Assembly: GCA_003707065.3 (NCBI GenBank)
Contig: PPXM03000014.1
Coordinates: 62,001 to 126,000, forward strand
DNA length: 64,000 nt
Direction of reading: 5' to 3'
Origin: Trigonopsis variabilis
Taxonomy: Eukaryota; Ascomycota; Trigonopsidomycetes; Trigonopsidales; Trigonopsidaceae
Of this stretch, positions 34,060 to 55,943 are shown one piece after another. The position numbers and the translations under genes were made by a program. How positions within the stretch are numbered: position 1 is the stretch's first letter; every line of letters begins with the position of its first letter. The notes beneath the pieces were generated by a model. That model ran no database searches, was not told the DNA's origin, and saw only the letters and a program-made list of their open reading frames with translations.

Positions 34060-37000
34060 ATGAACTTTATCTTGCCTTTGCTGCAAGTATTGGCCTTTTC
34101 TGACTTGGTGCTGGCCGCCAGGAATGCTTCGTCTACGATAACGCCAAATAAGGCTAATTCTACAGTCTCTGGAAATGCTAAAGATATCACAGAGATAGAG
34201 CATCTTGTCTTTTTCATGCAGGAAAACAGATCTTTTAACTCCTACTATGGTACAATGGCTGGTGTCCGCAACTTTAAAGACCCTAATGTGATGATGAACC
34301 CCAATTCGACTAGGAGCATCTTTTATCAGCCAACTGGAAAAGAAGACACTCCCTGGCTTCTACCGTTCTGGCTTGGACAGAATAATAGCGACTACATTGA
34401 AGCAAGTCAGTGTATCATTGCCGGTTCTAATGGCTGGGAGGCGAACCTGAACGCCTGGAATAATGGTACGATCAATGGATGGGCTACCAACAATACGGCA
34501 TGGTCATGGGGTTACTACAAGAGATCCGATATTCCTACCCATTTCGATATTCTAGAAGGCTGGACTGTCGGTGACATGTACTTCGAAAGTGTCATTGGAC
34601 CGACCCATCCCAACCGTATTAGCTGGGTCTCAGGTACTATTAATGCCTATGGATCGCCAGTCGGAGACCAGGAGGAGATGGGAGGCCCCGTGCTGGAAAA
34701 CGATCAGACTGTTGGATGCACGTACAACGATGGAATCGCTTATGACTGCTACCCTTACAAGTGGAAAAGCAATGCTGAATACTATCAAGATGCTGGAATT
34801 GACTGGCAAGTTTTCCAAGATGAAGATAACTTCGGAACCGACCCCTACGCCTTTTTCGCTAATTTCCAAGATCTTTCTTCCTCTAATCCTCTACAGGAGC
34901 GAGGAATGATCTTCAACGGCCTGGATTCTTTCTATGAAGCATGCGAAAATGGAACTCTGCCTGCTATATCCTACGTCTTTCCTCCCATGGAGTTGTGTGA
35001 ACATCCTCCTTGGCGACCGGCCGATGGCGCGTGGCTTCAATATCAAGTTGTCAACGCAGTCATGAATTCTCCTCTCTATAACAAGACTGCTCTTTTTGTG
35101 ACCTATGATGAGACTGGTGGATTTGGAGACCACGTTCCTCCTCCCGTATCTCCCAAGGGAACTGAAGGTGAATGGATGACAGACCCCGAAATGCCCTCCC
35201 GATACGTGCCTACTGGACCAGGCTTTAGAGTGCCCTTTTACGTTGTTTCACCGTGGACTCGTGGAGGCAAGGTTTATAGTGCCCCCTGTGACCACTCATC
35301 TTTCCTTCTTTTTGCCGAAGAATGGATTTCTAAGCGCTATGGCCTGGATGTCACCCAAGAGTCTATGAATCCCTGGAGACGAGAGCACATGGATAATTTG
35401 GTATCGATTTTTGACTTCAACAATCCGGACTACTCGCTTCCTTTTATCACAGACCCGGGGGAGCTAGCTGTCGACAGCTCGGGAAAATACAACGGTGAGA
35501 GTACTTGCAATGCCAAATACAAAGCTAGTTTGGGCAGCAACATTCGTGTTCCTGTCGTGTACAATCAGACTGAAGAGGAAGCTTTGTTTACTGAGACAGG
35601 TTACAAACAAGTTCGAGGCAAAATGACTGAAGGAAGATATCTTGTTTTCGAAAGAAAGGGCGACCATTCTATTCTTTCCTTTGACAACTCCACTCTGAGT
35701 CCATCATTTATCAGTGGCTGTGGTTCTGGTTACGACTGTCAAGAAGGAAGATTTATCATTGAGCAAATTGGGGATACCTTCAGTGACATCTTTAACATCA
35801 AGAGCGTCTATGGTTACTACCTTAAATCCTCTACTGGCTTTACAAAATCAAAGGATGAGGCTGCTCAAGTCACTATTTCTTTTGATGCTTCAAACGGCTA
35901 TTCCTTGTCTTTTCCTGGACTTGCAAAGAAATCTCAAGACTTTTACAACATTTACTCTGTTAGCTATGACCTGGATTTGCCAAATCAGCCCAGTCCGCAA
36001 TCATCCTCTCTGAGCAGTACCACGTGGTCATCTTTGTCGACCGGTAAAGCTTCAGCTTCTATCTCTGCTCTGCCCAGTACAACTTCCGTATCGGTGGGAA
36101 GCTCATTGAAGCCCTCTTCGCTCTCAGCTCCGGCTTCGGTCTTATCTAGCCAGCTGTCTGTGCTCTCCAATTCCGAATCTCAAGCAACGTCGACATCCTT
36201 GCGACCTTCATCTTCTGTGCCTTCAAGCATTGCCATCGGAACTCCTAGTGCGTCGCTATACTCTACTAGCCAGTCGTCAGCCTCAGCAGACGAGCCTTCT
36301 TCTATCGCTGGTTCCACTTTGGCCTCTATCCTTAGCTCTTCAGCTAATCCTACCAGGTGAGTTGATTTCTTTTATAGTTACTGACTCCAGTTCTTTGACC
36401 AGTGCTGAAATTTTGCCGACAACTTCACTCGAATCTAGTGTCGTGTCTGATAGTACCGTGGAGCCTAGTGTTGTTTCAAGCTCTGTTTTCAGAGAGCATA
36501 GCTCAACTTTGACAGCCGCGCCAAGCTCGAGCAGCGCTCCTTCAGTCGAGATCTATTTCGAGTTCAAAATGGGTGATTTTGAGCTGGAAGTTGTCATAGA
36601 GGACGGCAAGATCAAGATCTATCTGACTAAGTTGACGAAGCGAGACTCTACTATTCCAAACTGCCTAACTCTTGCTGATGGAAAACTGATTATCGATAAT
36701 CTTTACATTTATCCTGATTCTGATGGGCAACTTCTGGCGTCGAGCGATATCACTCCTGAAGTGTCTGCTGCAACATGGTCGGCTTCCTCGACCGGCTTGT
36801 CAGTCAATGGATTCTCTACGTTTTATGCATGCAGCTCAGGAGGTGTATATGTCAAGACCTCGTCTGATTACATGTGTGATTCCTTTACCCCTCTAAATCA
36901 CTCGTCTTCGTCGAACTGTGCGATAAAATCAGCCAGCTTGTTTGCAAATGCGACTCTGATTTCAACTTCCAGTCAAGGTGAAACTTCTAGCTGTGTGACT

Positions 37001-37186
37001 TCCGCTCTTGCATCCGCATCAGTGTCAAGTCTAGGCCACGAGGAAGCTGCTGCGACCGTATCTCCTTCGGAGGCAGCAACAGCTAGCTCTCAACCCAACG
37101 CCATTGCTTATAGTTCGGCTTCGCGAATGCAGAGTTGCTCGACAGTACTGATGGCTTTAGGTCTGTTCTACTTGGCTCTTTTCTAG
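34060..37186 (+). CDS. Secreted, GPI-type phospholipase C (phosphoesterase family) with Ser/Thr stalk and PIR-like C-terminal module
   Basis: About 1,030 residues from exons 34060-36356 and 36391-37186 (34-nt intron, branch tactgac). A signal peptide (MNFILPLLQVLAFSDLVLA) is followed by a bacterial/fungal-type phospholipase C/acid phosphatase domain at about 45-430: EIEHLVFFMQENRSFNSYYG, IGPTHPNRISWVSG, FVTYDETGGFGDHVPPPVS, GPGFRVPFYVVSPWTRGG. A beta-rich domain follows (to about 640). Next come a Ser/Thr stalk, a hydrophobic/acidic segment ending in KLTKR (36638-36643), a four-Cys domain (C-55-C-14-C-13-C, 36662-36919) resembling the PIR C-terminal domain, a Ser-rich tail and a GPI-type end (STVLMALGLFYLALF). 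Known family activity is cleavage of phosphatidylcholine-type phosphodiesters or phosphate monoesters. Display on the wall is inferred. Confidence 0.88.
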
Positions 37187-38180
37187 ACGAGCTTTCTATC
37201 TGCTGGAGACCTAGAAATATTCCTTTCTCTTTTTTATATTTAGTAAATAGATAAAGTGATGTTGTTGAGAGCTGTGATTTTGTGCAGTGGATGTAGGACC
37301 ACAAGATCTTGTAAAACGATGATAATACGGGTCGAAAATTGTAAATAGGACCTAGTAATGTCTGGTCTAACAGCCATAATTTGTTTACTAGTATTCCACC
37401 TCTCATGAATTGCCCATTATAGAATTATCGATCTCCGCCGTCAGATTATTGCCGCCATTTTTAAATATTGTATCTTGTTATGTTATTCATAGCAAAGTCC
37501 AAAGAATATTGACTAATCTACATCTTCTTTTCGCTTCTACTTCACGAAACGTTTTCCTACGCCAGTTACAAGAAAAAGCACAGGCTGCTAGCATAAGATC
37601 GAAGACAAGACTGACCCGTCGACGTTGCTGCGTTTAAGCTACAGGAAAGCGCTCTCTATGATGCCTCCGTTCCATAAAACCTTAAAAATGTATGTCAAAG
37701 AACGTAAAAGCTGTCTGCAAACCTGGTGTCACTGGGACTGACTTCAACATCAGCATGTCTCTCGTCTAATAAACACATCATGGTCCCCCTCCCGGGGGTT
37801 AATGCTTTCCAACACCAGAAGTTTCTGTATTCTCCTAAACACACGTTCCGTATAAAGGCAAAGGAGAAGCAGACACTCGTCCTGAACGCCCCATTATGCA
37901 GAGAGGGTGCAGCGGCCACTAGCTATACGGACTGAAATAGTCTGGAATTTAAACTTCACGTTCCTTGTTTCTTATGTCAAGTTGCGATACTCTCAATCCA
38001 TAGCGCTGGATCCCTCGCGTGGCGCTGACAGTTTCCATCCCTTGTGGAGAGAAAATAAAAAAGACCACAAAGGTGTAGCATCACCAACAGCTAGAACCAG
38101 CCAGATAGTCCTCCCCAGCGAGACTAGATGGACAGAGTGTCTAGCGTGTTATAGAAGCGGTAGATATGTCAAAATGTTCA

Positions 38181-38757
38181 TCACTTCTCTGCAAATGGAG
38201 AAATGCGTAAGATGACAGTGATGAGAAAGAAGATCTGTTCGACATATATGAACGACGCTGAGAATTCCTTATGGTTGGAGTGTTGGATTGCGAGCACCAA
38301 AACATATTTTGCGACAGCGAGCAGTGTCCATCGTTCACTTCTTTTCAGAAGACCAACTATTCTGTTGAGTTTGGCTACATGGCTGATCTTCCCCAAGCTG
38401 CAGATTAATTTCAAATCCACGTCCTGCTCAACTTCGAAGGAAAAATCTTGCTTAATGCCGATAAGCCGACTAGGGCCGGGGACAGCCTTGTCCGCTCACT
38501 AATCGCAGACTGTCCTTGTGACTTCTTCCTCCAATTTAGTATATTGGTCCTGTAGCGCCGCCAATCCACACCATATCTCAAGATGGATCAAGATTACAGT
38601 GGCAATCTGCCCGTGGAATCTTCCTGGCTTGTATTACGGCGCTGATGGTCCAGAGGAGCTGCTGTCCATTACGAAGGTCACCATTTCACCCAGCCCATTT
38701 TCTAGTTCTGGCGCAGCACACCCTTGCCGTAACAAAGGATGCGATGAACAAAAGCGC
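38181..38757 (-). pseudogene. Possible decayed coding sequence of unknown family
   Basis: One minus-strand frame reads about 190 codons with protein-like composition, interrupted about three times. The longest open part is about 105 codons (DFSFEVEQDVDLKLICSLGK, then LLKRSERWTLLAVAKYVLVL and two short hydrophobic stretches). No family is recognised and no clear start or splice structure explains the interruptions. Chance openness is a real alternative, so confidence is low. Confidence 0.22.
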
Positions 38758-39480
38758 TAGATCTTATCAGATCAGCGGGAGGACAAAATGGGCTACTTTC
38801 ATTCGAATTGGTACTAGTATTCCGACCGGATCTGGCTTCTCAGGATGTAACGTTTCCGTCGTCATTTCCGGCAATCCAATCAGATCGTATCAAAATCAAA
38901 GAAAAAGACCGGAATAAGAGAACAAGAGAGAAAGATACGTCTCTTTAAGGTAAGATACAAGTTTTTAACGATGCAATCCAGCATATATCACGTCGTTGGG
39001 TCTCATTTTGTCTAGCATGGGAGATCTGATAGGGTATGGGTGTCCCCGGGAAAGGCTTGGCAACGCAATCCCGTAGCGAATCACAAGATGCCAGGTGACT
39101 CGAGGAAGGTTTCTTGGTTAGCCTCAATTACCAATTACTCCATTGGGCCGCCGCTAAAGTTGTCAGGAAGGGCAGACAGAAGCACCAGAAGAACAAAGAA
39201 AATGCCCTCAATAATTGAAAAGGCGGCTTTGAACCAACACCATGGACCAGTATATCCCCGTAGTCTGGATAGCATCCTTATAGTTAACTTAGTATTATAA
39301 GATCCGGCGCCGAGGAAAGGATATACTGTCAGGTGTCAAACGCTCTAACCCGTCACAAATGTACGTGATCTCCTAATCAGGATCTCAAGTTAGCCTGTAT
39401 TTTCCGCCAAGAAGCCTTCTTTTCTCATTCCGCAAGGGGAAATATATAAGCATGGCTAATAAAGGGCAATCCAACTGGCT

Positions 39481-39495
39481 TCTCTCTTTAAGTCG
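39481..39495 (+). promoter_or_regulatory. 15-bp motif shared by two wall-protein leaders (copy 2)
   Basis: Identical to 34022-34036 (tctctctttaagtcg). It lies between a TATA box at 39443 and the ATG at 39552. Confidence 0.6.
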
Positions 39496-39551
39496 CACTT
39501 TCTTTATTCTTCTTACAGGCACTCGTTTATAGGTCTGGATCGTCATTTCGA

Positions 39552-42500
39552 ATGCTTCCCTCTCTTGCCATTCTTTGGCTGGCCCTGAGCTCGTTTGCCG
39601 GAGCTCAGGATTATGCTACGTATCCCCAAGTCCCCAAGACGGCGAGTATTAATGGTTTTGCCGACCCAATCTACTCCTTGCTGCCAGACTGCGCAAAACA
39701 ATGCGTCGCGATTTCAACGTCTGCGACTCCATGTCCATACTGGGATACGGGTTGTTTATGTGTGATTCAAAACTTTGCCTCTGCGGTGGCTACCTGTTTT
39801 GCTGCTTATTGCTATGGTACAGATGTCGTTTCGGCTACAAGCTTAGCTACTTCTCTTTGTGACTACGTCGGAGCGGAGACATGGATTATCGGCAGCGACG
39901 CGACTGCCTCATTAAATGCCGCGGCGAGTGCTACTAGGGCCATTTCCACTCTCGCAGTTTACACATCTACATCTTCTTCAGTGGCCCCGACCTCTACTGT
40001 GGCCACTTGGACAAACGCAGGCGCCTGTTTCTCCACGGCCACCCCTTCAGGATGTGCGCTTGAAACTGGATTGACTGCCAAATTCTACGCGGTTGCATAT
40101 CAGGATAGTCTTGCCGATGATATAGACTATTTGAGTTACGGATACCGTGATACTGAGCTTATTGCAACCACGTCGGGAATTACGTCGTTTAGTGCTACGG
40201 TTTATGATTTTTATGGAGGCGTTCAAACCTCAACTCTCTACAAGACCTCGGTTACAACGTCAAATGTGACTACTGAGCTGACTGGCTATTATCTTGCCCA
40301 GTACACCGGTACCCACGAGTTTTCCCTCCGCGCAGATGACGGTGCTGTGTTATTTTTGGGCTCACCAGACGCTTTTGAGTGTTGCACTTCTGACTTCTCG
40401 TCTGATGCAAACTACGTTATATATTCAACAACCACATCTTCCACTGGGCCGTACGACGGACCTGTGACCTACTATATGGAGACTGGGAAATATTATCCTA
40501 TGCGCATCGTCACTACAAACGCAGATTCCACATTCGAGTCTTATCTTTGGATTAAATATCCTGGTGCAACCACATTTTCCTTTGGAACGGGTCATGTGTA
40601 CAGCCTTGCCGATGATAGTGGAGCATGCTGCGCTGCTGCAGGGTCCAGCTCTGTCTTGTCTTCGGTGGCCAGCTCTGCTAGCCCGTCATCTGAACCGGCC
40701 TCTCAGCAGAGCTCATCTGCTGATATTTTATCCTCTGCAATCTCTTCGAGTACTTTATCCTCAACATCTGTGGCTTCTATTAGTTCTTATAACGAGGCCA
40801 GCTCTTTGGTGTCCTCTACTGGTTCATTATTTGTGCAGTCTTCAGGGTACGTCACTAGCGCACCGTCATCCGTGCAATCTTCAGTGATATCTTCTACCCC
40901 GCCATCGTCTGGAGCATTGTCTCCAGTGTCTTCTTCCGTGAAGTCGTCTACTTCATCCACTGTCTCATCTGCTACCTTACCGCCAGTTGTATCCTCATTG
41001 CTTTCTTCGTCGTCAATTGAAGCATCTTCTGTTGCCGCGTTCTCATCGCCTGCCTTGTCAGCTGAAGTATCTTCTGTTACGTCTTCAGTACCTCCTTTAT
41101 CATCTGTCGAAGCACCTTCAGTGGGCACGCCCTCGTCTGCTGCTTCATCGTCACTTGTATCTTCACTTGTGCCCTCCTCGCTTGCTATGTCTTCAAGTAC
41201 AGGCTTGCAGTCGGCTCTTCAAAGCAGCTCATCCTCTTCAGCATACAGTTTGGGTAAGCCTAATCCCTGGTGAATATTAACTCTTAGTTACTTCTACTGA
41301 GATTCTCTCAAGCGCTGCCTTATCATTTACTTCTAGCGCCGTCACTATCGTCTCTGGCGTACCATCTATTTCTAGTGCTGTCCCTATCGCTTCTGGTTTG
41401 TCGACATCCTATGCCAGTTCCCTCAGTAAGTCTCAAGTTGCACGATTATTGCTTCTAACAAAGCTTCCTCAACGACATTCGAAGCTACCACAGCTTTAAC
41501 TGGAACTGTTTCTCCTTTTGCTTCTTCTATCTTAAGCTCGTATATTACGAGCCCTGGAGGTTAGTTACAGGAAAGTTTTCAGATGACTAACCTAACAGCT
41601 GCATCTAATGCATCATCTACTGCTACCCCTTTCAGCACCAAATCTTGTAAGAATAGTAATTTTCAGAAGCCACTAACTTCAGTCGTCTCACCTCTTCCCT
41701 CTGATGCTTCAGAGACAGCTTCATCAGCAAGTAACTTTGTGTCACGTATGTACTTCGTCTTGGTTTACCCTAATACTTAGCTACCATCTCGTCAGCTACA
41801 AATCCTAGTTCTACCGCGGCACCTCTCCTATCCCTGTCATTTTCGTTTAGTATCAATTTGCGTTCCTTTGAAAACGCTATTATTGGGCTTTTCAACGCTG
41901 TCTTATCTTTCAATGTCAACAGTCTAGCTAAACGTGCCGATATTCAATCTGTCTGCTTCAACCTAGATAGTGGAACCCTCTCCACTGGCAACCTGGTGGC
42001 CTATGTCGATGACACGGGAAAGGTCGAGTTTCTGTCGTCTCTTCCTGCGGGCTATTCCGGACAATGGTCTGTGATAGACGATTATTTGGCTTTCAATGGA
42101 TCGAGTGATTTTTATGCCTGTCCCGTTGATGCTACCACGTATGAAGTCCATGTCTCGCTTGACGGCAGCTACGCGTGTTCCGTTCCCACTACCGGCTTGA
42201 GTTTCACTTATTCACAGTGCTCTGTTTCTTCTTCTTCCTCAGTTGCCGGCATTAGTGTGTCTGCTGGCGCCTCCGTTAGTGCGCCAGTCAGTGCTTCTGT
42301 TAGCGCACCGATCTCGTCTCTTAGTGGCTCAGCGACTAATACACCCAGCCAAGGCGCTGGAGCAACATCAACTGAACTGTTGACTAACACCTATGTTACT
42401 ACTTATTGCGGTACCGAAGGATGCACAAAAGCTACTATTACCACTGCTGTTCCTGCCGCGGATAGCACCGAATACCTAACATCGATTGTGACCGTGACAA

Positions 42501-43054
42501 CTTGTGATTCCAAGGGGTGCCATGTCACTACCGAGGCTGTTCAGCCAGTAATCACAACAGTGGCTACTACACTTACTGAAACTGTTACTTTCTGCTATAC
42601 TTCGACCACTTGTGACGCCTCTGGCTGTTCTGAAACTACTGAAACTGTCACTCTCGTGGAGATTTTGACTACAACTGTTCCTTGCACGACATATGCTGCC
42701 ATTACTGAAAAAGAAAAGAGTACTCCTTCTGGTTCTGTAGGATCTTCGTCTGGTGAAGGCTCAAATTCAGAGTCTGGAGCTTCTGCTGGTTCTTCTAACT
42801 CAGAATCTGGCTTTTACGGCTCTTCTGGATCTGCGTCTGGAACTTCTGCAGGTACTCCATCAAGCTCTTCGTCTGGTTCTTCTAAGGGGTCTTCTGTCTC
42901 CGAGTCGAGTTCTTCCTCAGGTACTGCGTCTGCCTCTGAAAGCTCAGAGTCGGCAACGTCCGGGCAATATGTGGGCGCAGCTTCTTCGCTATCTTTATCG
43001 ACCGGGTTATCTACGGGTCTACTTGTGATCATTGGAGCTTTCAATCTCTTCTAG
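39552..43054 (+). CDS. CFEM + GLEYA adhesin with intron-split Ser/Thr stalk, PIR-like module and GPI end
   Basis: About 1,106 residues in six exons: 39552-41253, 41288-41425, 41464-41559, 41599-41646, 41683-41745 and 41781-43054. Introns are 34, 38, 39, 36 and 35 nt, all phase 1. A signal peptide (MLPSLAILWLALSSFAGA) precedes a CFEM domain with all eight Cys (about residues 45-105; DCAKQCVAIS, CPYWDTGCLC). A GLEYA/PA14-like lectin domain spans about 165-355 (ETGLTAKFYAVAYQD, LTGYYLAQYTGTHEFSLRAD, FECC). A Ser-rich stalk follows, then AKR at 41927-41935, a four-Cys PIR-like domain (C-54-C-18-C-13-C, 41954-42220), three Cys-pair Thr repeats (YCGTEGC, TTCDSKGC, TTCDASGC) and a GPI-type end. CFEM can bind heme or support wall integrity and GLEYA binds glycans; neither is proven here. 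The exon at 41647-41682 could alternatively be read through in frame. Confidence 0.85.
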
Positions 43055-44225
43055 ATGGCGACACTGAACATTTGGAACTATATTTAGTATTTCGCTTCCC
43101 TGTTAGAGAGTTTATCTATTTTTTCTGGAAAAAGCTGTAGAGAATAGAATACATTTATAAGGAATTTCCTATCTTGTCAAGTGTTCTTAATTTTCTATCT
43201 AAACTCTTTTATCAGTGTTTCTGTCAAGGCCTCATCTTGTTACTTACCCTTTTGCTTGGTATTGGGGTATTCTAAATGTTTTTAATGCCTTAGTTTTCTT
43301 TTAAAGACTCTCTGTGAGATATAAGCATGCCTTTCAGTATACAGGAGTTGCCTGTTGTCAGACCAAGCGAGTAAGAATTATTGGCTATCACCCAAACACT
43401 GGATTGTAGTTGTACCTAGTATCTAGCCTCTATGAGCAGTAACCAGCTACCCATTAGTATCATATAATACAGTTTCCAATATTAGAACAAAGATATCATT
43501 CTAATTCGTAAAAGGTTAGCCAAATCAACACTGCCCAAAATCAGCCTATAGTGGGGATAAATACACCAAGTCCAGAGCTAAATACACGTCAGTGCTTTGA
43601 TTAGAAAACTCAGTGTTCGTTCAGTATGGGGCTTATTGTTACAGATACAAAGGATGCATCCAAACGGTTCTTATGCATGTGTCATAGTCACTAATTTGAA
43701 GCAGCTATGGTATGAAGCTAGAAGACGATACTTTCATCATTCTAGAGAGTCCTTTGAAAGCGTGATCGTGAGGATGTGTAAACATTTGACAAGTATATCA
43801 AAGGCGAAGCTCTTGAAGAACCCGACCCAATGGTAATATACAATAGTATAGATTAAATACAGCGCTCAATACTGCCGACTGTCAGTAAATTGGCACGGGT
43901 TGATACTAAGAAAGACGAAAATATTTACTAGTCCAGTCCGGAGGCATTAGCCGTTAGTGACTGAAACAAATGGCCCTAGACGTGATCTGCCGAAGCTAAG
44001 CGAGCGAGAGGATAGTTGAGTCGCTTATGTCAGCAAAAGCGCAGGCACATGTCGAGTGTCATGAATAAATTGGAGATTATTGTCCCGTATGTAATTTGGA
44101 AGTCGCATAGAACACAGACAGTGAGCTGGTTGTGCTACCGCCGTGGTGGTATTCAGCAACGGCTTCTATTATCGTTACACCATTGATCTTTAACCTGTCA
44201 ACCAGAATATATTACATTAAAGAGA
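43055..44225. other. Convergent intergenic region between two adhesin genes
   Basis: About 1.2 kb between converging stops. I see no gene; a 79-codon plus-strand frame near 43597 has no motif. AT-rich stretches just after 43054 could carry 3' end signals for both genes. Confidence 0.4.
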
Positions 44226-47150
44226 CTAGAGAAACAAAAGGAAAAGCGTCGAGAGACCAGAAATGAAAAAGGAGGGCATTCTCAAGAATTCGGCACCAGA
44301 GTATACAATTGAACTGACAGCTGATCCACCAGTAGAGGTTGCAGTCGCTGCAACAGCCTCAGTGCTTTGAGTAGTCACGAGACCCTGAGCGTAGTTCAAG
44401 GAAGTCGCACTTGCTTCAGAGCCTTGCTTGGTAGCTGATTCGGGCGAAGTCTCAGAAGTTGTAATGAAGGTTGAAGATCCTACAACAACACAGGCGCATG
44501 TCTCAGGAGACTCAATCGTCAAAGCAGTTATGGTAGATGTTGGGGCAAGGAACTCTGTAGTCTCGGCGCTAGAGCATGGAACATAGGCAGTGACAGTCTC
44601 ACTTTCGCAGACAATCACCACTCCGGTTGCAGTTGCTGTCGCTGTGACCGTTGCTTCGGAAGCAGTGATAGGGGCAGCAGCGCCTGTTTCTTCAGATCCC
44701 TGCTCAACTGTGGTCGCAGTCAATGCCTCAGTAGTAGTAATAAACGTTGAAGATCCGACAACGACACAAGTGCATGTCTCTGGGGATTCGATTGTCACTG
44801 CAGTTATCGTGGTTGTTGGTGCAAGGAATGTAGTAGTCTCAGCACTAGAGCAGGGAACAAAAGCGGTCACTGTTTCAGTTTCACAAACAATCACGACTCC
44901 AGTTGCGGTAGCAGTTGTAATCACAACTGTCGAGGATCCTTCAGATGGCGACTCACTAGCGGAACCAGCAGGTGAAGGAAATTCTTGAGAGATTGTCGAC
45001 TCTTGCGGCAAGGCAGAAGAGGTAGACAATGAAAAGGAAGTAGCAAATGAACTAGAGACTGTGACTGCAGTTGAAGCAGATAAAGTTCCAGGAAGAATAC
45101 CTGTTGAGTTGCTCTTAGGACCAATAGACTGTGAGCTCAAAGGGACCAACACAGAGGAGGAGCCAGCTGAAGGACCAAGTGAGTGACCAGTTGAAGGAAG
45201 AGCAGTGCTCGAAACGACGATAATATTAGAGCTCGGCAGAGAAACAATGTCTGAAGCAGGTTTAATATTAGCAGAAGAGACAGCTGCAGCAGAAGAAACA
45301 ACGACACTGCTCATAATGGGAGCAGCAGAAGAGCGGGTAGCGGTAGAAGAGACCACGACAGTGCTAGAAACTAGAACAGGAGACGAAGCAGGGACCGAAG
45401 AAAAGATAGCGAAGCTACTAGACTTTGCGATGGAAGAGGGGCCAGCAACGCTGCTAGAAACTGAGGTAGAAGTAGCGACACTGGTGGAAAGGGTAGCCGA
45501 GGAAAAGGCAATTGCACTGCTAGAAAGGGGAGCCGAAGATAGAGCAACAACACTGCTGGAAACGGCTGCAGAAGAAGGAGCAGCAACACTGCTGGAAACT
45601 GCCGCAGAAGAGGGAGCAACAGAAGAAAAAATAGCAACACTGCTGGAAGGAACAGTGGAAGAAGAAACAGCAACACTGCTGGAAACTGCTGCAGAAGAAG
45701 GAGCAGCTGAAGAGGAAACAGCAACACTGCTAGAAACGGCAGCTGAAGAAGGAGCAGCCGAAGATAGAGCGACAACACTGCTGGAAACGGCTGCAGAAGA
45801 AGGAGCAGCAACACTGCTGGAAACTGCTGCAGAAGAGGGAGCAACAGAAGAAGAAATAACAACACTGCTCGAAAGAACAGTGGAAGAAGAAACAGCAACA
45901 CTGCTGGAAACGGCTGCAGAAGAAGGAGCAGTTGAAGAGGAAACAGCAACACTGCTGGAAACGGCAGCTGAAGAGGGAGCAGCTGAGGAGGAAACAGCAA
46001 CACTGCTGGAAACTGCTGCAGAAGAGGGAGCAACAGAAGAAGAAATAGCGACACTGCTCGAAAGAACAGCGGAAGAGGAAACAGCAACACTGCTGGAAAC
46101 GGCAGCTGAAGAAGAAACAGCAACACTGCTGGAAACTGCCGCAGAAGAGGGAGCAACAGAAGAGGAGATAACAACACTACTGGAAACGGCTGCAGAAGAA
46201 GGAGCAGCAGAAGAGGGAGCAGCTGAAGAAGGAGCAGCAGAAGAGGAAACAGCAGCAGAAGAGGGAGCAGCTGAAGAGGAAACAGCAACACTGCTGGAAA
46301 CGGCAGCTGAAGAGGGAGCAGCGGAAGATGGAGCGACAGAAGAAGAAATAGCAACACTGCTAGACTTCACGGCAGACGAAGAGATAGCCGAACTACTCGG
46401 GACCTGCGATGATGAGATTCGGCGTGAGGAAGAAACAGCGCTGCTTGAGGCACGGACCGAGGAAGAAGGAGTTCCACCACAGTCTGGACACGAGCTGACA
46501 TATGCATTAGAGGTAAAGACATTGCCGTTAAGACCCCAGCTAGTATCGCCGCTTGGACCAGTACCGGTAATGACGAGATCTGCTTCAGCCCCGGAGGTTG
46601 TAAGAGTGACTTTGATAGGATAGTATGCGCCAGCAGTCAAGTAAACATATTCAGTATCTCCATAATCTGAGGTACTTGTTTGGATGTCTAGAGGAGTACC
46701 GCTTGCTAGGACGGAACTAGGGTCGCAACAACTGAAAGCTTCACCATCTCCAATATAGATGGCTCCTGCCTGATTAAGAGTGTGGAAAGCAAATCCATAT
46801 AACCCTGTCTCTTGGGCAAGAAAGTAACCAGTAAAAACGCCAGTGAAGTTGGATGTAGAAAAGTTATTCATTCCAAAGTAATCTAAAGGATCATCGTGAC
46901 TAAGACTGAACCATAGCTTAGACAACCCATCACTTGTGCCAACAAGAGGTCCGGTAGTATAACCAGAAGTCAGATAATCTTGCAGCTCTTCGGTTGAAGA
47001 GTCATAGGTAGAGTTATAGATCTGAGTCTCGAAACCAGGTGTAGGCGAGGACAGCGCACAACACGAGGAAGCGGTCGAATACGGACCGTCAGCATTGGCA
47101 TAAGTAGCCAAGTACAACAAAGGCAGAATGAACCACAATGACCGGGACAT
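44226..47150 (-). CDS. GLEYA-domain GPI adhesin with long Ser/Ala repeat stalk
   Basis: About 974 residues, single exon. The start is the ATG at 47150 (MSRSLWFILPLLYLATYANA, a signal peptide); the frame runs upstream only from a non-ATG codon. A GLEYA/PA14-like domain follows at about residues 25-230 (SCCALSSPTPGFETQIYN, LWFSLSHDDPLDYFG, FTGYFLAQETGLYGFAFH, FSCCDPSS, AGAYYPIKVTLTTSG). A Ser/Ala/Val repeat stalk spans about 240-610. Two 92-residue Thr-rich repeats come next, each with VIVCE, VTAFVPCSSAETT and ESPETCTCVVVGSSTFITT. A GPI-type hydrophobic tail ends the protein (FISGLSTLFLLFL). Unlike its three neighbours it lacks the four-Cys PIR-like module and introns. The likely role is glycan-binding adhesion. 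Confidence 0.87.
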   Translation of the reverse strand: MSRSLWFILPLLYLATYANADGPYSTASSCCALSSPTPGFETQIYNSTYDSSTEELQDYLTSGYTTGPLVGTSDGLSKLWFSLSHDDPLDYFGMNNFSTSNFTGVFTGYFLAQETGLYGFAFHTLNQAGAIYIGDGEAFSCCDPSSVLASGTPLDIQTSTSDYGDTEYVYLTAGAYYPIKVTLTTSGAEADLVITGTGPSGDTSWGLNGNVFTSNAYVSSCPDCGGTPSSSVRASSSAVSSSRRISSSQVPSSSAISSSAVKSSSVAISSSVAPSSAAPSSAAVSSSVAVSSSAAPSSAAVSSSAAPSSAAPSSAAPSSAAVSSSVVISSSVAPSSAAVSSSVAVSSSAAVSSSVAVSSSAVLSSSVAISSSVAPSSAAVSSSVAVSSSAAPSSAAVSSSVAVSSSTAPSSAAVSSSVAVSSSTVLSSSVVISSSVAPSSAAVSSSVAAPSSAAVSSSVVALSSAAPSSAAVSSSVAVSSSAAPSSAAVSSSVAVSSSTVPSSSVAIFSSVAPSSAAVSSSVAAPSSAAVSSSVVALSSAPLSSSAIAFSSATLSTSVATSTSVSSSVAGPSSIAKSSSFAIFSSVPASSPVLVSSTVVVSSTATRSSAAPIMSSVVVSSAAAVSSANIKPASDIVSLPSSNIIVVSSTALPSTGHSLGPSAGSSSVLVPLSSQSIGPKSNSTGILPGTLSASTAVTVSSSFATSFSLSTSSALPQESTISQEFPSPAGSASESPSEGSSTVVITTATATGVVIVCETETVTAFVPCSSAETTTFLAPTTTITAVTIESPETCTCVVVGSSTFITTTEALTATTVEQGSEETGAAAPITASEATVTATATATGVVIVCESETVTAYVPCSSAETTEFLAPTSTITALTIESPETCACVVVGSSTFITTSETSPESATKQGSEASATSLNYAQGLVTTQSTEAVAATATSTGGSAVSSIVYSGAEFLRMPSFFISGLSTLFLLFL
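44460..44930 (-). repeat. Two 276-bp tandem coding repeats (92 codons each)
   Basis: Within the GLEYA adhesin. Copies are offset by 276 bases (gttgaagatcc at 44470 and 44746). Each encodes a Cys-containing Thr-rich unit. They are diverged at many third positions, so the duplication is old. Confidence 0.8.
45400..46440 (-). repeat. Coding minisatellite: Ser/Ala/Val array of the adhesin stalk
   Basis: About 1 kb of short degenerate units encoding permutations of SSSAAPSSAAVSSSVAVSSS, with higher-order near-identical blocks. On the opposite strand the same bases give a long open frame of Glu/Ala/Thr repeats and in another frame a Leu-rich one; both are by-products of the repeat. Length variation between strains is expected. 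Confidence 0.9.
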
Positions 47151-50100
47151 CTCTATGGGCGACCAGAAGATGAAGTTACCTGGAAATATTATCAAAATCT
47201 GCACTGATGTCCCCCATGGTATTTAAACGACCTAGACTGCGTCAGTTCAATCTTCTCCTAGGGCCTTTCGCCAAATTGATACCCTTTTCGATCCGGTTCA
47301 ATGCTAGAATAGCGATCGTTCCAGATCTAGAATAAGACTTGAAAGTCCGCATTCGGTAAAGCTTCCACAATTATTACTATCTTTGGATATCCCATAGCGA
47401 GGGACAAGGCTAAAAGGGACCATCCTTTTGGCCACGTAGACTTTTCGGCCCGTGAGGCCGTTACTAACCATCCTTCTTTCTCCAAGAGACTTCTCTATTC
47501 TTCCTAGCTTAGTTTGCGCCACAATTCTTTGTTAGCATAAGAGTTTTTCCATAAGCCTATTATCGCCATGGAAGTGAGTTCGCCACAGCGCTTCGGTTTC
47601 CAAGCGAGTTGGAATCAATATTGGCATGTGTAAATTACCTAGCGAAGAAAGGCTAGAGGCTCTGGAGATAAACTTTTGAGGCAAAGTAGATGTGATTGAC
47701 GTTTCAATTGGTTGGATAAAAAATGCTCAAGAATTGCCATATTGAGAATTAGGGAACTCTTCTACTTTTAGCAACTTGTAAAATTCGACCTATCTTTGGA
47801 TATGCCATAGCGAGGGACAAGGCTGAATTGAGGGCCATATTATCGGATCGTGGAAACGCATAGCCGCTACCTCTCTGCATCAGTGTCCGTTTTTGGCACG
47901 AGGAAAGTTCTTTAGAACCAAGGGTCAAAAGTGGATGCCACTCTATTCTTGCGCCCTTCGATCCGCAGGGGGATAGTTTATCAATTCTGGTTCTCCAAGG
48001 ATGATTAGGATGCTTGCGATAGCAGTAGGGAAATATTGACGTTATTTCTCATCGAAGAATTGCCATTGGTATGTGGATTGCTGCCTGAATCACAGAAAAC
48101 ATTCATTGGGCGACGAATGGGGAAGAAGGCGTATATTCTTTCCCGAGGTTGGGATGATGTCCTTTTACGGAAATTTATTTGCTCTAGACTTCAATGGGTC
48201 TGATTTGTTTCCCAATCCAAGTCTGAAACCGTACAGATCCCCGTATCTGATCCCTCGATCTGCTCCCCGAGGAGTCTACATTTTGGTATAGTAAATATGG
48301 TTCGATTTTCCGTCTTGCCTGTTTCCGGACATAATTGTTTTCCCTCTATGGAATAAGGCCAAAACAAACGCCATGGATCTATGTCGACAAGTTTTATCAT
48401 TCTTTCCCGAGAACTTTTATACTTTTTATTCGTTCGTTTATAAGATTAATTGAATTTTGTTTGGTTTGTCGATTTTTAGGCCATCTGTGTTCTGCTCTCC
48501 GTGAGCAATACAGTGTTTTGATTCGAAGATTTACTGTGTGACGGTAGATTATGACCCTCCGAATAGCGGAAAGCTTCGATCGGCTTTCTTCCATTTTTGT
48601 AGAATGGATATCGGCTATATGCGAATAGAGAGGGATCTTTTTGTCTTCCTTGGACTGACCCCCACCACCGGAATAAGCTGGTCTGCAAACAGTATCGAAA
48701 TATCAGTGGTACAGTGGTGACGTCGAAATTCACCTTGTCAGTTTTATGTGCCGGCTTATCCGCTGCGAATGTATAAGCGAGTAAGGTTCTTAATTAAAAG
48801 GAGCTTGTTTTAAATATGTTTATTCTCCAAATTGACAATGGTCTCAGGCATCCAGATAAGAGTCAGAGAGTGGAAGATACCAGTTTACTCTTAGAAGATT
48901 GAGATGACAGTTGTACGTGCTAAGTAAAGAAACATTTACTCAAAATTGCAGGTAAAGGGCTGTGACGGTATTTAAAGACTTATCTTTGATAGATCCTTTG
49001 CCTCGCATACTTAGCCGACTACTGTTTTGGGGTTGCCATCAGGAGCACCATCACTTGTAGGTTTTCTTCTACATATAAAGACTCACGATATTTTTCTTTA
49101 GCAAAGTAATTGAATAATACCTTTGCATCTTAGAAAAATGTTCCAGCCATCATACTTGTAGTTAGCAGCTCGAGCAGCTGTTGTCCTTCTTTGATGTCAA
49201 GCTATCTTGTAGATCTGTCTCGTAAAGCACAAAGATCAATATATAAACAATAGAGACCAAATATAAACAGTCCCCTGCCGGCCTTTACTATGGCTTAGAG
49301 CTCTTCGTATCACAATAAAGTTTGCGACATACTTAAGGATTCACTGACAAGGGTGATAGAATCCGACTGCAAGAAGGGTTCTCACACAAGGAAATCCTTA
49401 TAATATTCAGTTTTTCTGTCACACTATTAATATAAATTATAAATATCAACTTGCTGAGGTTAGATGAAAGAAATGTGTAGAGGCTTATATATAGCTCTCC
49501 CCCTCTTTTATCTTTGTGACTGTGTTTGCTGTCCCCATGTAGACGAGCAAAGTGTTGATCATGTGGTGGCAATTAGCCAAACAAAGGAGACTTGTGTTAT
49601 CACATTGATGCTAAAATCTTCACGAAAACATCATTCAAATAATCTGACTGGATTGTTGGCAACGAATGGATTTATGCTCACCTTATGAATTTGAGCTTTA
49701 CCACTTACTTATGAGCAGAATTGTCACCTACTGAGAAGAAATTGTTCAGTAGTATCCCGAGCTGTTGACGAGCTGTTGATGGCTGCCCACCTCAAGTGCA
49801 TCCCATAGATATGCTTTATACACTGAGCACACTTTATCGCTCATATATTATCTTCGCTAATGCGTTGTCACTGGTGATAGGAACTGTCGCGGCCCGCTTT
49901 TCGGAGCAGTGAAGGTATACTTGTATTGCATGATTAGATTTTTCCAATTCATTTCACTCGGGTTGGGATCTTTTTCATATTACTCTAGCACCATCTTTGT
50001 TCTCAAGAGCTGGATAAGGATCCCTTGCCTGGGTTGAAAGGAAGCGGCAAACCATCATATTGTAGATGGTGCCACCATCACTACTTCAATAGTTTAGTCT

Positions 50101-52015
50101 CGAATATGTGAATGCCAGTCTAGTTATCTACCGCAAGAGATGTATGGCTCACTCACTATGCGCAAATTGAGCGTATTCGTTACTATCGGCTTCACCGACG
50201 AGGTCGTTTTTACCTCTAAACCGCCAAGAGGCTCTATTATAACGTCGTTCTATATAATATTGAATAGGTCAGCGAGTTGCACAGAATGATAGCAAAGAAC
50301 ACGTTCTTTCTAAAACTGTACCACTTCTGTTCCACCAGTTTCTCCTAAGCCAGAACATTGTAGAGACATGGCATTGAAAGAGTCACAGAGCACAGATTGT
50401 TTAAAATCTCACCAAGTGCCCACTCCCACCGTAAAATCGGGGTAGCCACGCAAAACTATTTCAGAAATATCCGACAGACGTCGTTTTTAAAAGTTTTCTC
50501 GGATGGTTTCTCCGCAGATTTCTCCACTGCTACTGCCGTAAATTGACGTTTCTAGAACGCAGTCTATAAGGATAGCCACTTAAGCTGTTTTCTCTCTATA
50601 CTTTAGTCTCTTCTGGCTATTTGTCGCTTCTGGATGATATGGTGTGATACCGAGCGCTGAGGATGTAACAGATTCAGCACTGCACGTGGCGCAGCTGTTA
50701 CCAAAATCAAAGTCGTATAGCGGTCGGTACCCGTTGACCTATCACGTTAGTCGTCTTCGTAATAAATCTAACTAACTAGACCTAGTTACATCTTATTATG
50801 GGATGAGCACCTATTTGACAGTGTGATTGATGCAGATCTGTTACAGTTCGAAAAGAGAAGCAGGCACTAAGGTGTCTTAGCCAACTATGAGACAAACATC
50901 GTAACGGATCTCTGGAACTCTTCTTGAGTAGTGGGTGTATAGTGACAGTCCCTCAAGAAAGTCTCTGCTTAATTAGCGCTCTACGATCTCTGATCAGAAC
51001 TATATGTTCAGCAAAGCTGGCTGGCTGCCTTTGACATACTAGAAAGATATCAACAGTGTGGCTTAACCTAGACTGACAAAGGAAGGTATTTACCTAGATT
51101 GCTGGCCGCTATCGATTAGGTCAAAGGTATGCTACTCGCTCCTTTGAACACCAGTAGAACATGATCATCACATCGATCGATTTCAGGGCTAATCTTTCGC
51201 TGAATAAGGTCGCGCCACTCTTTGCTTGGAGATTTTATCTTCAAGAACGGCTCACGGCTCATCAGAATACTCGATTGACACCCGTGGTGTTCGAGTCCAC
51301 GAGTCATAGGGAACCAATATCATATCTTATAGGAGCTTCTTCTATGTATAATATCTCTTATTCCTGTGCTAGCAATCCATGAGGCTTTCATACACATCTA
51401 ATATGTCTCACAGCTGTGTATCAGTCTTGTCGCCTTCTTCCTTGTCAAGATTCCCGGCTTTTTCGTAATCTACAAAGAACAGGTTCAAACACATTTTCTA
51501 GTCCAATAAAGATAATTTTTATCTTTTCTGTAGTACCGTAAAAGTCTACGGCAATTACAGCAATTATATATGATCTTGTTTTATATTGCGTCGAGAGTTG
51601 GCATAGCAATTTTCCCGAGGTCCCTGGTGTTGGTCCACCATGACTGGCTCATTCTTCCAAGGGACCGGTCGCTTACAAGAGTGTATAGTTATGGCACGCC
51701 GGCAGGCTATACCTAATTGGGATTTAGTTTGACACCACCAGCGGTTGAATGGTAAATCTTATCCTGGTTATCTTTTCGCATACTTTGGCGGTCTTTTAGC
51801 GGCCACATTCTAGAGTATCCTTTTTTTTACTGTTCAGAACGATGGTATTAGATTACGCCAACACTCAACACCGTGAACTTTTCATATGCTATTGCACAGC
51901 GCCAGCAACTTTACCGCCAGAATAAAGGCTAACTAAAGCAGCAATCGAACTTATTAGACCTTTTAGTAAAGCAAACAGCATCTGTTTATAATAAAGGTTT
52001 AAGTAACGCCAAACT
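47151..52015. other. 4.9-kb region without recognisable genes, upstream of the GLEYA adhesin
   Basis: All frames are under about 85 codons and show no motifs. It lies 5' of the GLEYA adhesin and 3' of the next wall-protein gene. It contains a 35-bp direct repeat (47377 and 47790). The length resembles the very long promoters of flocculin genes such as FLO11; non-coding RNAs are possible but not visible. Confidence 0.45.
47377..47824. repeat. 35-bp direct repeat, two copies 413 bp apart
   Basis: Copies at 47377-47411 and 47790-47824 match at 34 of 35 bases (tatctttggata, then ccatagcgagggacaaggct). Flanking bases do not align well. Origin unknown. Confidence 0.85.
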
Positions 52016-55000
52016 CTAGAATACTATAATAAAGCCAAGCAGGAGAAAGACCAAATGGTAAAGAGGGCGCCAGAGAATAACGGAGGAGGTGGCGGCACTG
52101 AAACTACTTTCCGGCTCAGAGTAAGAGGATCTCATAGCAGAAGCAATCTGTACGCTCGAGGTGGGATTGACGGGGTATTCTATCGGCAAGCTTGTGGTAG
52201 GTTTTAGCGTATGTGGAGAACTGGTCAGGTCCGATACCAATGTATCTGAATGTGTGGCTTGCGAAGATTGCATAGTTCCTTCTGTCACATGCTGATCTGT
52301 AATCGGTTTTGAGCTCAGCTCAACAGGCCGGCTGGTGACAGTGAGAGACTGTGAAACTCTCGTATATATTGTTCCAAGAACAATAGTGCTTGTATGCTCA
52401 AAACACTTGGATGAGAGGCAGGATGTCACCGTCGAACACAAAGTGACCAATTCAGTCACTGTCGTCAGGTACACATCTTGTACTTGACTTTCTCCTCGAT
52501 GATGACAATTACCAGAGTCACATGTCTTCACGAGATCTGTTTGGAAAGACAAAACAGTGACCGTAGCTGTAGCGCCTTCCCCTTTATCAAAGTTCTCATC
52601 CAAGCGACTCGAGGTTCGAACCTCTGGTGGAGAGAGAGAAGACAGTAAAGATGGTGGTTTCGAAGTAGGGTTAGATGAGTATTCGTCGAGAGTTGATTGA
52701 AACTCTCCCACTGGTGATTTAACTGGATAAGAACCCGAAGAAGCTGACTTTATAAAGTTCTGAGAGAAAGAAGGGGTCAAGGTAGGATGAGAAGAGATCG
52801 TCTCAGATGAGGCAAGACATTGAGTAGATCCAAAAGTGACATTTGCCAATGGGTTCTGACAAATATAGTTGCCGCTCGAGACATAAACTTTGTAATACCC
52901 CTGCTCATTTGGACAAGCATAAAACGAAGAATCTCCGTTATACCCAAGAAAGCCATCTATGAAAGACCACTTATTAGAGCTTTCTAAGACTGATGACTCG
53001 AATAATACCTCCCCCTCATTACTGACATAAGCACTGAGACCTCCGATGCTAAGCTGACCCTGGTTCAAGCTGAAACATCTTTCTATTCGGTTTGCTCGCC
53101 TTAGTAAACGAGACATGGAAGTCAGAGAAAGTGCGCTGCCTGTGACCTCCACAATGGAGCCATCAGGTCCAGTGAGACTAAATGGGTAGGATAATGACGA
53201 TATGCCATTGCTAGGATATTCACTGACTGATGGGAGAGGAGCTGTGACTTAGTAATATACACAAGGAAGTCAACTTACAGCTTTGCGATGGTGAAGCCAG
53301 GTTTGCTATGCTTCTGTTGATCTGACTGGGAAATACATCACTTGATCGTACTATATATATGTCAGTGTCGCGCTGTGAGCACTAGAATTACTCACTTGAA
53401 GAGCCTCCTGAGCTTGTTTTAAGAGAAAATGCAGATTTAGGGGAGGCTGCAAACGAAGGTAGAGAGCTATCACTACGCAATTGCACAGAAGATGACTGCA
53501 CAGAAAGCCCAGTCGTACTAACTATCACTTGAGATAGCGTGAGCTGTGAATAATGAGAACTAATTTCAGAATCTTCGCTTGCGGAATGAGCCAGAGAGCT
53601 TGAGCGTGGAAGTCTTTGTTCCCTGGAGGAAGAAGAATAGAAAGGTGCACTTGAAGATTCTTGGGGATTGCAACTTTCTGTCAAGTCAAAAGAGGAGACA
53701 ACTAATCCTGTTAAAGAGCCAGAATAATGAGATAATGAGATCGACAAGGAAGTATAGACGTTTGAATGTGACAAAGAAGACTTCATTGTACAGGTCAAAA
53801 TGGATCTTGCCCTAGAAGACTCTGAGCTCACGATCATAGAGGATGTAGTCACTTGACTAAGGTGCGAAACTTGAGTCGCTGAAGGGATGTGACTATATCC
53901 ACTAGGGATCAAAGAAGGCGAAGCTAGTTTTTGTGAATTTGGACCTGATGATGTTGCACTAGAAAGTTTCGAAGAAAGATCTAGACTCTCGGTAATAGGG
54001 ACTGATGAGAGTGTCGGAGAAATGCTTTCCGTATTAGACCTTATTGACGAAGAAGATCCAGGGCCGTGAGAATGGCTGGAAATATTGGAGAACGATGGCC
54101 CTGATGGGTATAAAGGCCTCACTGATGATTCAGAACCTACGTTATTAGAAGTGCTGGAAGCAGTAGAGTCCGAATGGTAGAGTGATACTGGCGAAATGAT
54201 CTCATTCGATAGAGTAAGAGGAGAAGATGTTGAAAGGCTAGTCGTCATACCTGAAGAAGTTTTGTTCGGAAAACCGCTAGAACTCGTGGATAGCGGAGAA
54301 ACCTCATCAGTAGAAATAGAGCTCGATGGGATGAATGATGAAGTAGATCTAGGTTTAGAGAAACTCGCTGAGCTAGGCGTGCTATAGAAGCTTGAAAGAG
54401 AGAAAGACAAAGCACTTGTTGTTACCAAAGAGCTAGACGAACTGGGGGTAGAATGTATAGAAGACAGGCTTTTCGTATCTGACGAAAATTTAGACCCTGT
54501 CGTAGAACTTTCAGGGAACGCTTGTGAGGACAAATCTCTGCCACCACTAGCAGAGCCAAGGGAGACTGGTGAAGAATAAGAGACCGGCAAAGACGTAGCC
54601 GTAGACTTCCAAGCAGCACTACTCGTCAGCTCGAAGGAGGATGAAAGTCTCAAAGAGGAGCGCGGAATGGACGTAGAATCCGACAAAGACGGAGAATTGG
54701 ACGATAAGGACAAAGCTGTATTCAAACGAGCTAAAGATGAAGGCGCTAAGTTCGAAAGAGTAGAAAAAGTCGAAACTGTCCATGAAGAAGAAACTGGATT
54801 GGAGCCAGAGATTAACCTGATATTACTATATTGCCCATATGCCGAACTTGAGCATGCTGCTGAATAAGGCCGTATATACCACGCCGACGTCGAGAAACCG
54901 CAGACATTGAACTCAACTTCTTGTTGGTACGTCAAGTAATAACTTGAATCCATAGAAATTACAGAAAGGTAAGGATTGGAAGGAGAACTGACGGACAAAT

Positions 55001-55943
55001 AATTATTTATCCAGTTCAGGGTGCTATTGCCGGAGCAGTCACTTGTCGTGCACACACCCACATGAGCATCTGAATCGAGATAAAAGGAATAAATGAGAGA
55101 TAATCCCATTGAGCTGGGATCTTGCAATTGAGAAGCAAAGAGAACTATATTTCCAGATGGGTTTTCATAGGCATAAACATCTACCCATGCCTCAGTTTCT
55201 AGATCACCGATCTGGACAACTGAGAAGTCTGTGGAGGCTGCAATCTCGACAGAACTTGACGTTGAAGAAGGTTGAATGCTTATCGAAGCGGTCGACGCCT
55301 TCGAGATGGATGTACTCGACCTGCCTGGAGAATTGGAAGATAAAGACGAAGCTGCAGTCAAGCGACCTAAAGAGGAAGACGGTAAGTTTGAAAGAGCAGA
55401 AGTCGAAACTGTCCATGAAGAAGAAACTGGATTGGAGCCAGAGATTAACCTGATATTACTATATTGCCCATATGCCGAACTTGAGCATGCTGCTGAATAA
55501 GGCCGTATATACCACGCCGACGTCGAGAAACCGCAGACATTGAACTCAACTTCTTGTTGGTACGTCAAGTAATAACTTGAATCCATAGAAATTACAGAAA
55601 GGTAAGGATTGGAAGGAGAACTGACGGACAAATAATTATTTATCCAGTTCAGGGTGCTATTGCTGGAGCAGTCACTTGTCATGCACACACCCACATGAGC
55701 GTCTGAATCGAGATAAAAGGAATAAATGAGAGATAATCCCACTGAGCTGGGATCCTGCAATTGAGAACCGAAAAGAATTATATTTCCAGAAGGGTTTTCA
55801 TAGGCATAGATATCTACCCATGCCCCAGTTCCTAGATCACCGATCTGGATAGCCGGATAATATGTTGCGTCGGACAGTGCAACTACCTTCACGATATAAA
55901 GAATGCTCAGAGCTATAAAGGCAAAACCCTCAGTCATTCTCAT
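52016..55943 (-). CDS. Large GPI wall protein: two copies of an unrecognised domain, Ser/Thr stalk, PIR-like module
   Basis: About 1,281 residues from exons 55943-53396, 53350-53279 and 53241-52016. The 45- and 37-nt introns are both phase 1, so the 72-nt middle exon is symmetric. A signal peptide (FAFIALSILYIVKVVALS) is followed by two near-identical domains of about 145 residues (about 31-175 and 242-386) with AWVDIYAYENPSGN, YSFYLDSDAHVGVC, NWINNYLSVSSPSNPYLSVI and FNVCGFSTSAWYIRPY; I do not recognise this family. A long Ser-rich stalk precedes LLRR (53096-53104), then a four-Cys PIR-like domain (C-53-C-17-C-13-C, 53077-52817), a tail with Cys pairs (KTCDSGNCHH, TSCLSSKCFE) and a GPI-type end (YHLVFLLLGFIIVF). 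The frame extends upstream of the ATG to 56,200 without another ATG. Confidence 0.8.
54768..55840 (-). repeat. Tandem 633-bp (211-codon) duplication inside the wall-protein gene
   Basis: Bases 54768-55212 and 55401-55840 repeat at an offset of 633. The first 263 bases (54768-55030 and 55401-55663) are identical; the next roughly 180 have about 15 mismatches. The stalk pieces between them are diverged. Confidence 0.9.

Follow-up and report, generated by a model that had tools for sequence, protein, structure and literature searches.

The Pir proteins of Saccharomyces cerevisiae are nicked by Kex2 into two subunits that remain non-covalently bound, as reported in excerpts of PMC10483737. When β-lactamase was placed in Pir subunit I, i.e., before the Kex2 site, its cut form appeared in the non-covalent wall fraction and the uncut form was confined to the covalent fraction; the C-terminal Pir domain lowered display (PMC10483737, excerpts). 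DGQ and QFQFD motifs were proposed as common to Pir proteins (PMC8975586, excerpts). A Kex2 cut reportedly precedes the shedding of S. cerevisiae Flo11 (PMC8617999, excerpts, citing Karunanithi 2010). As a structural feature, PIR proteins have a beta-trefoil fold that receives one strand from subunit I, and they carry an alkali-labile link to beta-1,3-glucan. They end at their C-terminal domain and lack a GPI signal.

Here, we describe a common end piece, or module, of predicted surface proteins in Trigonopsis variabilis. It resembles the PIR proteins (Pir1-5/Hsp150, Cis3; PF00399 + PF22799) in its four-Cys C-terminal domain of similar layout and in a Kex2-type site, here predicted, upstream of this domain. 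In contrast to PIR proteins, the first Cys gap is 52–55 instead of 66 residues, most copies have large heads in front, a Ser/Thr tail and a GPI-type end follow the domain in eight of nine copies, and the predicted cut lies close to the domain, after a beta-like segment. Two-subunit non-covalent assembly after the cut is reported for Pir proteins (PMC10483737, excerpts) and is proposed here for the module. Flo11 resembles the module proteins as a GPI adhesin with a reported Kex2 cut; this cut, however, is in the N-terminus and is tied to shedding (PMC8617999, excerpts). GLEYA/PA14 and CFEM GPI cell-wall proteins have the same head domains, Ser/Thr stalk and GPI-type end, to which the module proteins add a kexin-site module between head and stalk. 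To our knowledge, Flo11 is without a four-Cys PIR-like module, and no module of such kind was found in the literature on Kex2, PIR, GPI, CFEM, GLEYA and Flo11, searched mostly outside subscription journals. Kex2-nicked two-subunit Pir proteins are known; new, as judged from the predicted proteins, would be a PIR-like nicked unit serving as a module common to different heads.

Results

Nine genes with a common end

The window, i.e., the whole stretch of 64,000 nucleotides analyzed, contains three genes with different N-termini that in their spliced models have a common C-terminal module, as the initial annotation had proposed (Table 1). Its positions for the three dibasic pairs, each six residues before the first Cys, and its three sets of Cys spacings were confirmed. 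A plain open-frame listing breaks all three genes, and short predicted GT..AG introns rejoin them in frame. These introns lie within the Ser/Thr linker or at its end, and in most of them a sequence resembling a branch point (CTAAC, CTGAC or similar) stands close to the intron end. For gene 3, four two-intron models are open; the splice choice differs upstream of the module, which is common to all four. The gene 1 head matched PF04185 in Pfam (E 5.4e-75) and phospholipase C chains in the PDB (best E 9.1e-59), the gene 2 head matched CFEM (E 6.4e-13) and GLEYA (E 1.1e-16) in Pfam, and for the gene 3 head there was no significant match in Pfam or PDB sequences.

Table 1. Features of the module genes and of the PIR protein in the same genome
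Feature	Position	Strand	Description
Gene 1	34060..37186	+	1030 aa, spliced frame open; signal peptide, phosphoesterase-family phospholipase C head, Ser/Thr linker, module, GPI-type end
Gene 1 predicted intron	36357-36390	+	GT..AG; joins head and tail in frame
Gene 1 pre-site segment (VEIYFEFKMG...LT)	36545..36637	+	Common to 9/9 copies; beta-hairpin in low-confidence model
Gene 1 predicted kexin site, KR	36638..36643	+	LTKR/D (slash, predicted cut); motif at module site
Gene 1 four-Cys domain	36662..36919	+	C-55-C-14-C-13-C; PIR1-like_C E 0.13, below cut-off
Gene 2	39552..43054	+	1106 aa, spliced frame open; CFEM + GLEYA head, Ser/Thr linker with five predicted mini-introns, module, GPI-type end
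Gene 2 pre-site segment	41825..41929	+	Aligned in nine copies; dN 0.12 vs C7
Gene 2 predicted kexin site, KR	41930..41935	+	LAKR/A; sole [KR]R of protein model
Gene 2 four-Cys domain	41954..42220	+	C-54-C-18-C-13-C; PIR1-like_C E 0.0045, below cut-off
Gene 3	52016..55943	-	1281 aa, spliced frame open; two near-identical unknown domains, long Ser/Thr region, module, hydrophobic end
Gene 3 predicted introns	53395-53351 and 53278-53242	-	GT..AG
Gene 3 pre-site segment	53102..53197	-	Aligned in nine copies
Gene 3 predicted kexin site, RR	53096..53101	-	LLRR/A; sole [KR]R of protein model
Gene 3 four-Cys domain	52817..53077	-	C-53-C-17-C-13-C; PIR1-like_C E 0.0065, below cut-off
C7 copy			CFEM + two GLEYA domains; one 1218-aa frame
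C10 copy			468 aa, headless; signal peptide, short linker, pre-site segment, KKR, four-Cys domain
C1:1815 copy			Apparently four copies of an unknown domain; one 1245-aa frame
C3 copy			587 aa; CFEM alone as head
C1:856 copy	C1 about 852.3-857.3 kb (L037:1845-6802)		1617 aa after splicing three predicted introns; phosphoesterase domain, then three-domain multicopper oxidase
C1:862 copy	C1 about 858-864 kb (L036:1-5319, L037:7666-8199)	-	Run of N inside
True PIR protein	C5, L039:2127-3272	-	Ten PIR repeat matches; PF22799 E 3.2e-29; spacing 66/16/12

The genome to which the window belongs (11.35 Mb, 15 contigs) was searched at the protein level with module queries from the three window genes, and each query recovered nine copies; the family of three first described is thus real and has six further members. 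The C10 copy as a fourth query returned eight of the nine and missed C3. All comparisons below concern these nine paralogues of a single genome. The module consists, in this order, of a pre-site segment of about 30 residues, the [KR]R site, 5–7 residues, the four-Cys domain and a Ser/Thr tail. Its pairwise identity is 24–76% (median 32%), and the four Cys are present in every copy with a spacing of 52–55/13–18/13 (18 in C10). Signal peptides and GPI ends were called by eye on the gene models: eight of nine models have a signal peptide, a Ser/Thr-rich stalk and, behind the four-Cys domain and its Ser/Thr tail, a hydrophobic GPI-type end. The GPI-type end given in the initial annotation hence holds with the exception of C1:862, which has no such C-terminal signal. 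Four copies (C3, C7, C10 and C1:1815) run from signal peptide to hydrophobic end in one uninterrupted reading frame, so one polypeptide bears head and module; the gene models of the other five depend on predicted introns. NCBIfam had no relevant match for six module proteins. Among 7999, 1599 and 7997 candidates scored in protein database searches there was no relative of the module, a result without bearing on other species.

The heads differ among the nine copies, C10 has none, and C1:862 is inverted. This copy, whose protein model covers 1112 residues up to an assembly gap, has a signal peptide, a Thr-rich N-terminal part, the module with RR-x7-C and then repeated GLEYA domains before the stop. 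These nine copies support the view that the C-terminal module is swappable and has a kexin-type site. Seven GLEYA matches in the genome belong to four apparent genes, three of them with the module. Between the module genes of the window lies a further GLEYA protein of GPI type (44226-47204, minus strand); it has a long repeat rich in Ser and no module match.

In C1:856, the convergent neighbour of C1:862, a single predicted polypeptide joins a phosphoesterase-family domain to a multicopper oxidase and ends in the module. The near-identical pair of secreted domains in gene 3 (54800-55943, minus strand) looks like a recent internal duplication. The gene 2 linker contains its five predicted introns, 34–39 bases each, within about 530 bases (41254-41780); its close relative C7 is one unbroken frame.

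A conserved dibasic site

A [KR]R pair was found at the module site in all nine copies. Its distance to the first Cys, given as exactly six residues in the initial annotation, is six in seven copies, five in C10 and seven in C1:862. The chance of [KR]R at one of these three offsets, calculated from the composition of the respective protein, ranged from p 3.1e-4 to 3.6e-3, values that are not independent as the copies are related (median pairwise identity 32%). The placement of [KR]R at the site is not a matter of chance. Every one of the nine protein models (C1:862 partial) contained a single longer motif L-x-[KR]-R-[A/D], invariably at the module site, with P4 Leu, P2 Lys/Arg, P1 Arg and P1' Ala/Asp constant amid variable neighbouring residues. 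Given the low identity of the module as a whole, this retention suggests that the site residues are held by selection. In seven models, the partial C1:862 among them, the site is the sole [KR]R pair; the phospholipase C has three further pairs and C1:856 two, all within or next to the enzyme heads.

The kexin P domain had one match in the genome, which points to one kexin gene. By eye, its frame shows Asp, His and Ser catalytic motifs, a Ser/Thr stalk and a membrane segment, as in the kexin family; no signal peptide was visible in this frame. An N-terminal LFKR-AA is likely the kexin's own pro-site. Because the common end piece has a conserved cutting site inside a conserved unit, each of the nine surface proteins is probably cut in two at this position.

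Conservation across the predicted cut

Alignment on the site showed that the roughly 30 residues upstream of it are conserved in all nine copies, including the headless C10, whose KKR is one column off in the nine-copy alignment. The segment opens with a [FYL]-x-F pattern and is rich in alternating hydrophobic residues. The hydrophobic segment first noticed before the site turned out to be a conserved, beta-like part of the module itself. For the closest pair, gene 2 and C7, dN was 0.12 in the pre-site segment (35 codons), 0.17 in the site plus four-Cys domain (99 codons) and 0.28 in the tail (248 codons), all point values with no significance attached; dS was about 1.5 where computable, which excludes the four-Cys domain. 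Constraint on both sides of the cut suggests a single fold that bridges it. Two AlphaFold2 models of the module, built from only three sequences, had pLDDT values of 48 and 57 and both placed a beta-hairpin at the pre-site segment with low confidence; in a structure search, the better model found no usable fold match.

On the module tree, the nine copies fell into two groups (support 100/100). CFEM and GLEYA heads occur in both clades, and CFEM heads are 56–57% identical across them, which fits heads or modules having been exchanged. On the tree, the phosphoesterase heads form a pair of their own (91/91), and the head labels as a whole need 4 changes, with as few in 24 of 200 shuffles; both observations oppose free exchange. 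Heads are thus not freely mixed across the module tree.

Relationship to PIR proteins

PIR1-like_C (PF22799) was the best Pfam match of the module region in six of nine copies, with E values of 2.1e-4, 9.7e-4, 0.0045, 0.0065, 0.13 and 0.17, all below the cut-off; the remaining three had no PF22799 match up to E 0.5. The PIR-like label of the initial annotation is supported only in the sense of a remote kinship. In C1:862, one of these three, the module region weakly matched Fascin, a beta-trefoil family (PF06268, E 0.11, below cut-off). No PIR repeat (PF00399) was matched in the module proteins scanned. [DE]GQ was absent upstream of the first Cys in all nine module stretches, with two occurrences downstream of it in the phospholipase C and C1:856 copies, and Q-x-Q-F-D was absent from all nine modules.

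The genome encodes a true PIR protein on C5, which has QLQFD and ends at its C-terminal domain without a GPI signal. An hhalign comparison of the module with this protein gave a probability of 3.9%. Unlike S. cerevisiae Pir proteins, the C5 protein has no dibasic pair, so that the PIR analogy for cleavage is not a direct one within this genome. Membership of the module in the PIR family was considered and rejected, as there is no DGQ repeat at its place and no QFQFD. From its sequence, the module probably descends from a PIR C-terminal unit, and by analogy it may also work like one.

Discussion

We consider it somewhat likely that the common end derives from PIR proteins and, once nicked, acts as a two-chain coupling that holds the head non-covalently on a GPI stalk. 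The protein, head and module together, would fold as one chain in the secretory pathway, and kexin would nick the folded chain in the late Golgi, between Arg and Ala/Asp of the L-x-[KR]-R-[A/D] motif. The head chain would then end in the pre-site segment, which would remain docked on the four-Cys domain. As a result, the head would be held non-covalently on the GPI-anchored stalk, which in turn may be linked to the wall. In its beta-like segment, predicted cut and four-Cys domain, the module would thus copy the Pir layout in compact form. The β-lactamase in subunit I may be regarded as the nearest published analogue of a head (PMC10483737, excerpts). Several observations speak against this reading: the low pLDDT of both structure models, a PIR kinship below the Pfam cut-off, the true PIR protein with its lack of a dibasic pair, the incomplete mixing of heads over the module tree, and C1:862, in which the GLEYA domains follow the module and a GPI-type end is missing.

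Alternatively, the head might be shed to the medium as a free enzyme or adhesin after the kexin cut, with the four-Cys part and the GPI stalk staying in the wall. The [KR]R pair and the L-x-[KR]-R-[A/D] motif agree with this equally well, and Flo11 of S. cerevisiae is reported to leave in such a way (PMC8617999, excerpts). We find it rather doubtful for the module proteins, since the pre-site segment is conserved, has a low dN and is kept in the headless C10, and since Pir subunits are reported to stay together (PMC10483737, excerpts). Sequence conservation on both sides of the site, in the headless copy as well, and the reported subunit behaviour of Pir/Hsp150 lead us to favour two-chain coupling over simple shedding. 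The pro-protein layout of C10 would also fit a mere maturation site: the pre-site segment would act as a pro-peptide that helps the four-Cys domain to fold, and upstream heads would ride along, retained or lost depending on the protein. This is distinctly unlikely in our view, as the same head kinds in both module clades suggest that the arrangement is useful to the heads. That the linker stays uncut, with the dibasic pair in a structural or electrostatic role, would agree with the true PIR protein, which has no such pair, but is very improbable given the constant P4, P2, P1 and P1' residues amid variable neighbours, seven of nine models otherwise free of [KR]R pairs and a kexin encoded in the genome.

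Taking the two-chain coupling further, we may speculate, as a tentative possibility, that the module is a general two-piece plug: a nicked PIR-derived fold might mount exchangeable enzymes and adhesins non-covalently on GPI stalks, where they could be kept in place, let go or docked again with no additional proteolytic step. The C1:862 protein, inverted with its GLEYA domains across the cut and lacking a GPI signal, could then be a soluble partner that docks on freed halves of its relatives. If the coupling is real, a nicked PIR fold, known as a wall protein itself, would have been adapted as a reusable connector, one that determines whether enzymes and adhesins of the surface remain on the wall or leave, and it would offer a natural design for reversible yeast surface display.

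In the left half of the window (2347-29494; contig of 137 kb), six of eight scanned frames match transporters (MFS, sugar, amino-acid permease, sodium symporter), and the other two match fungal transcription factors.
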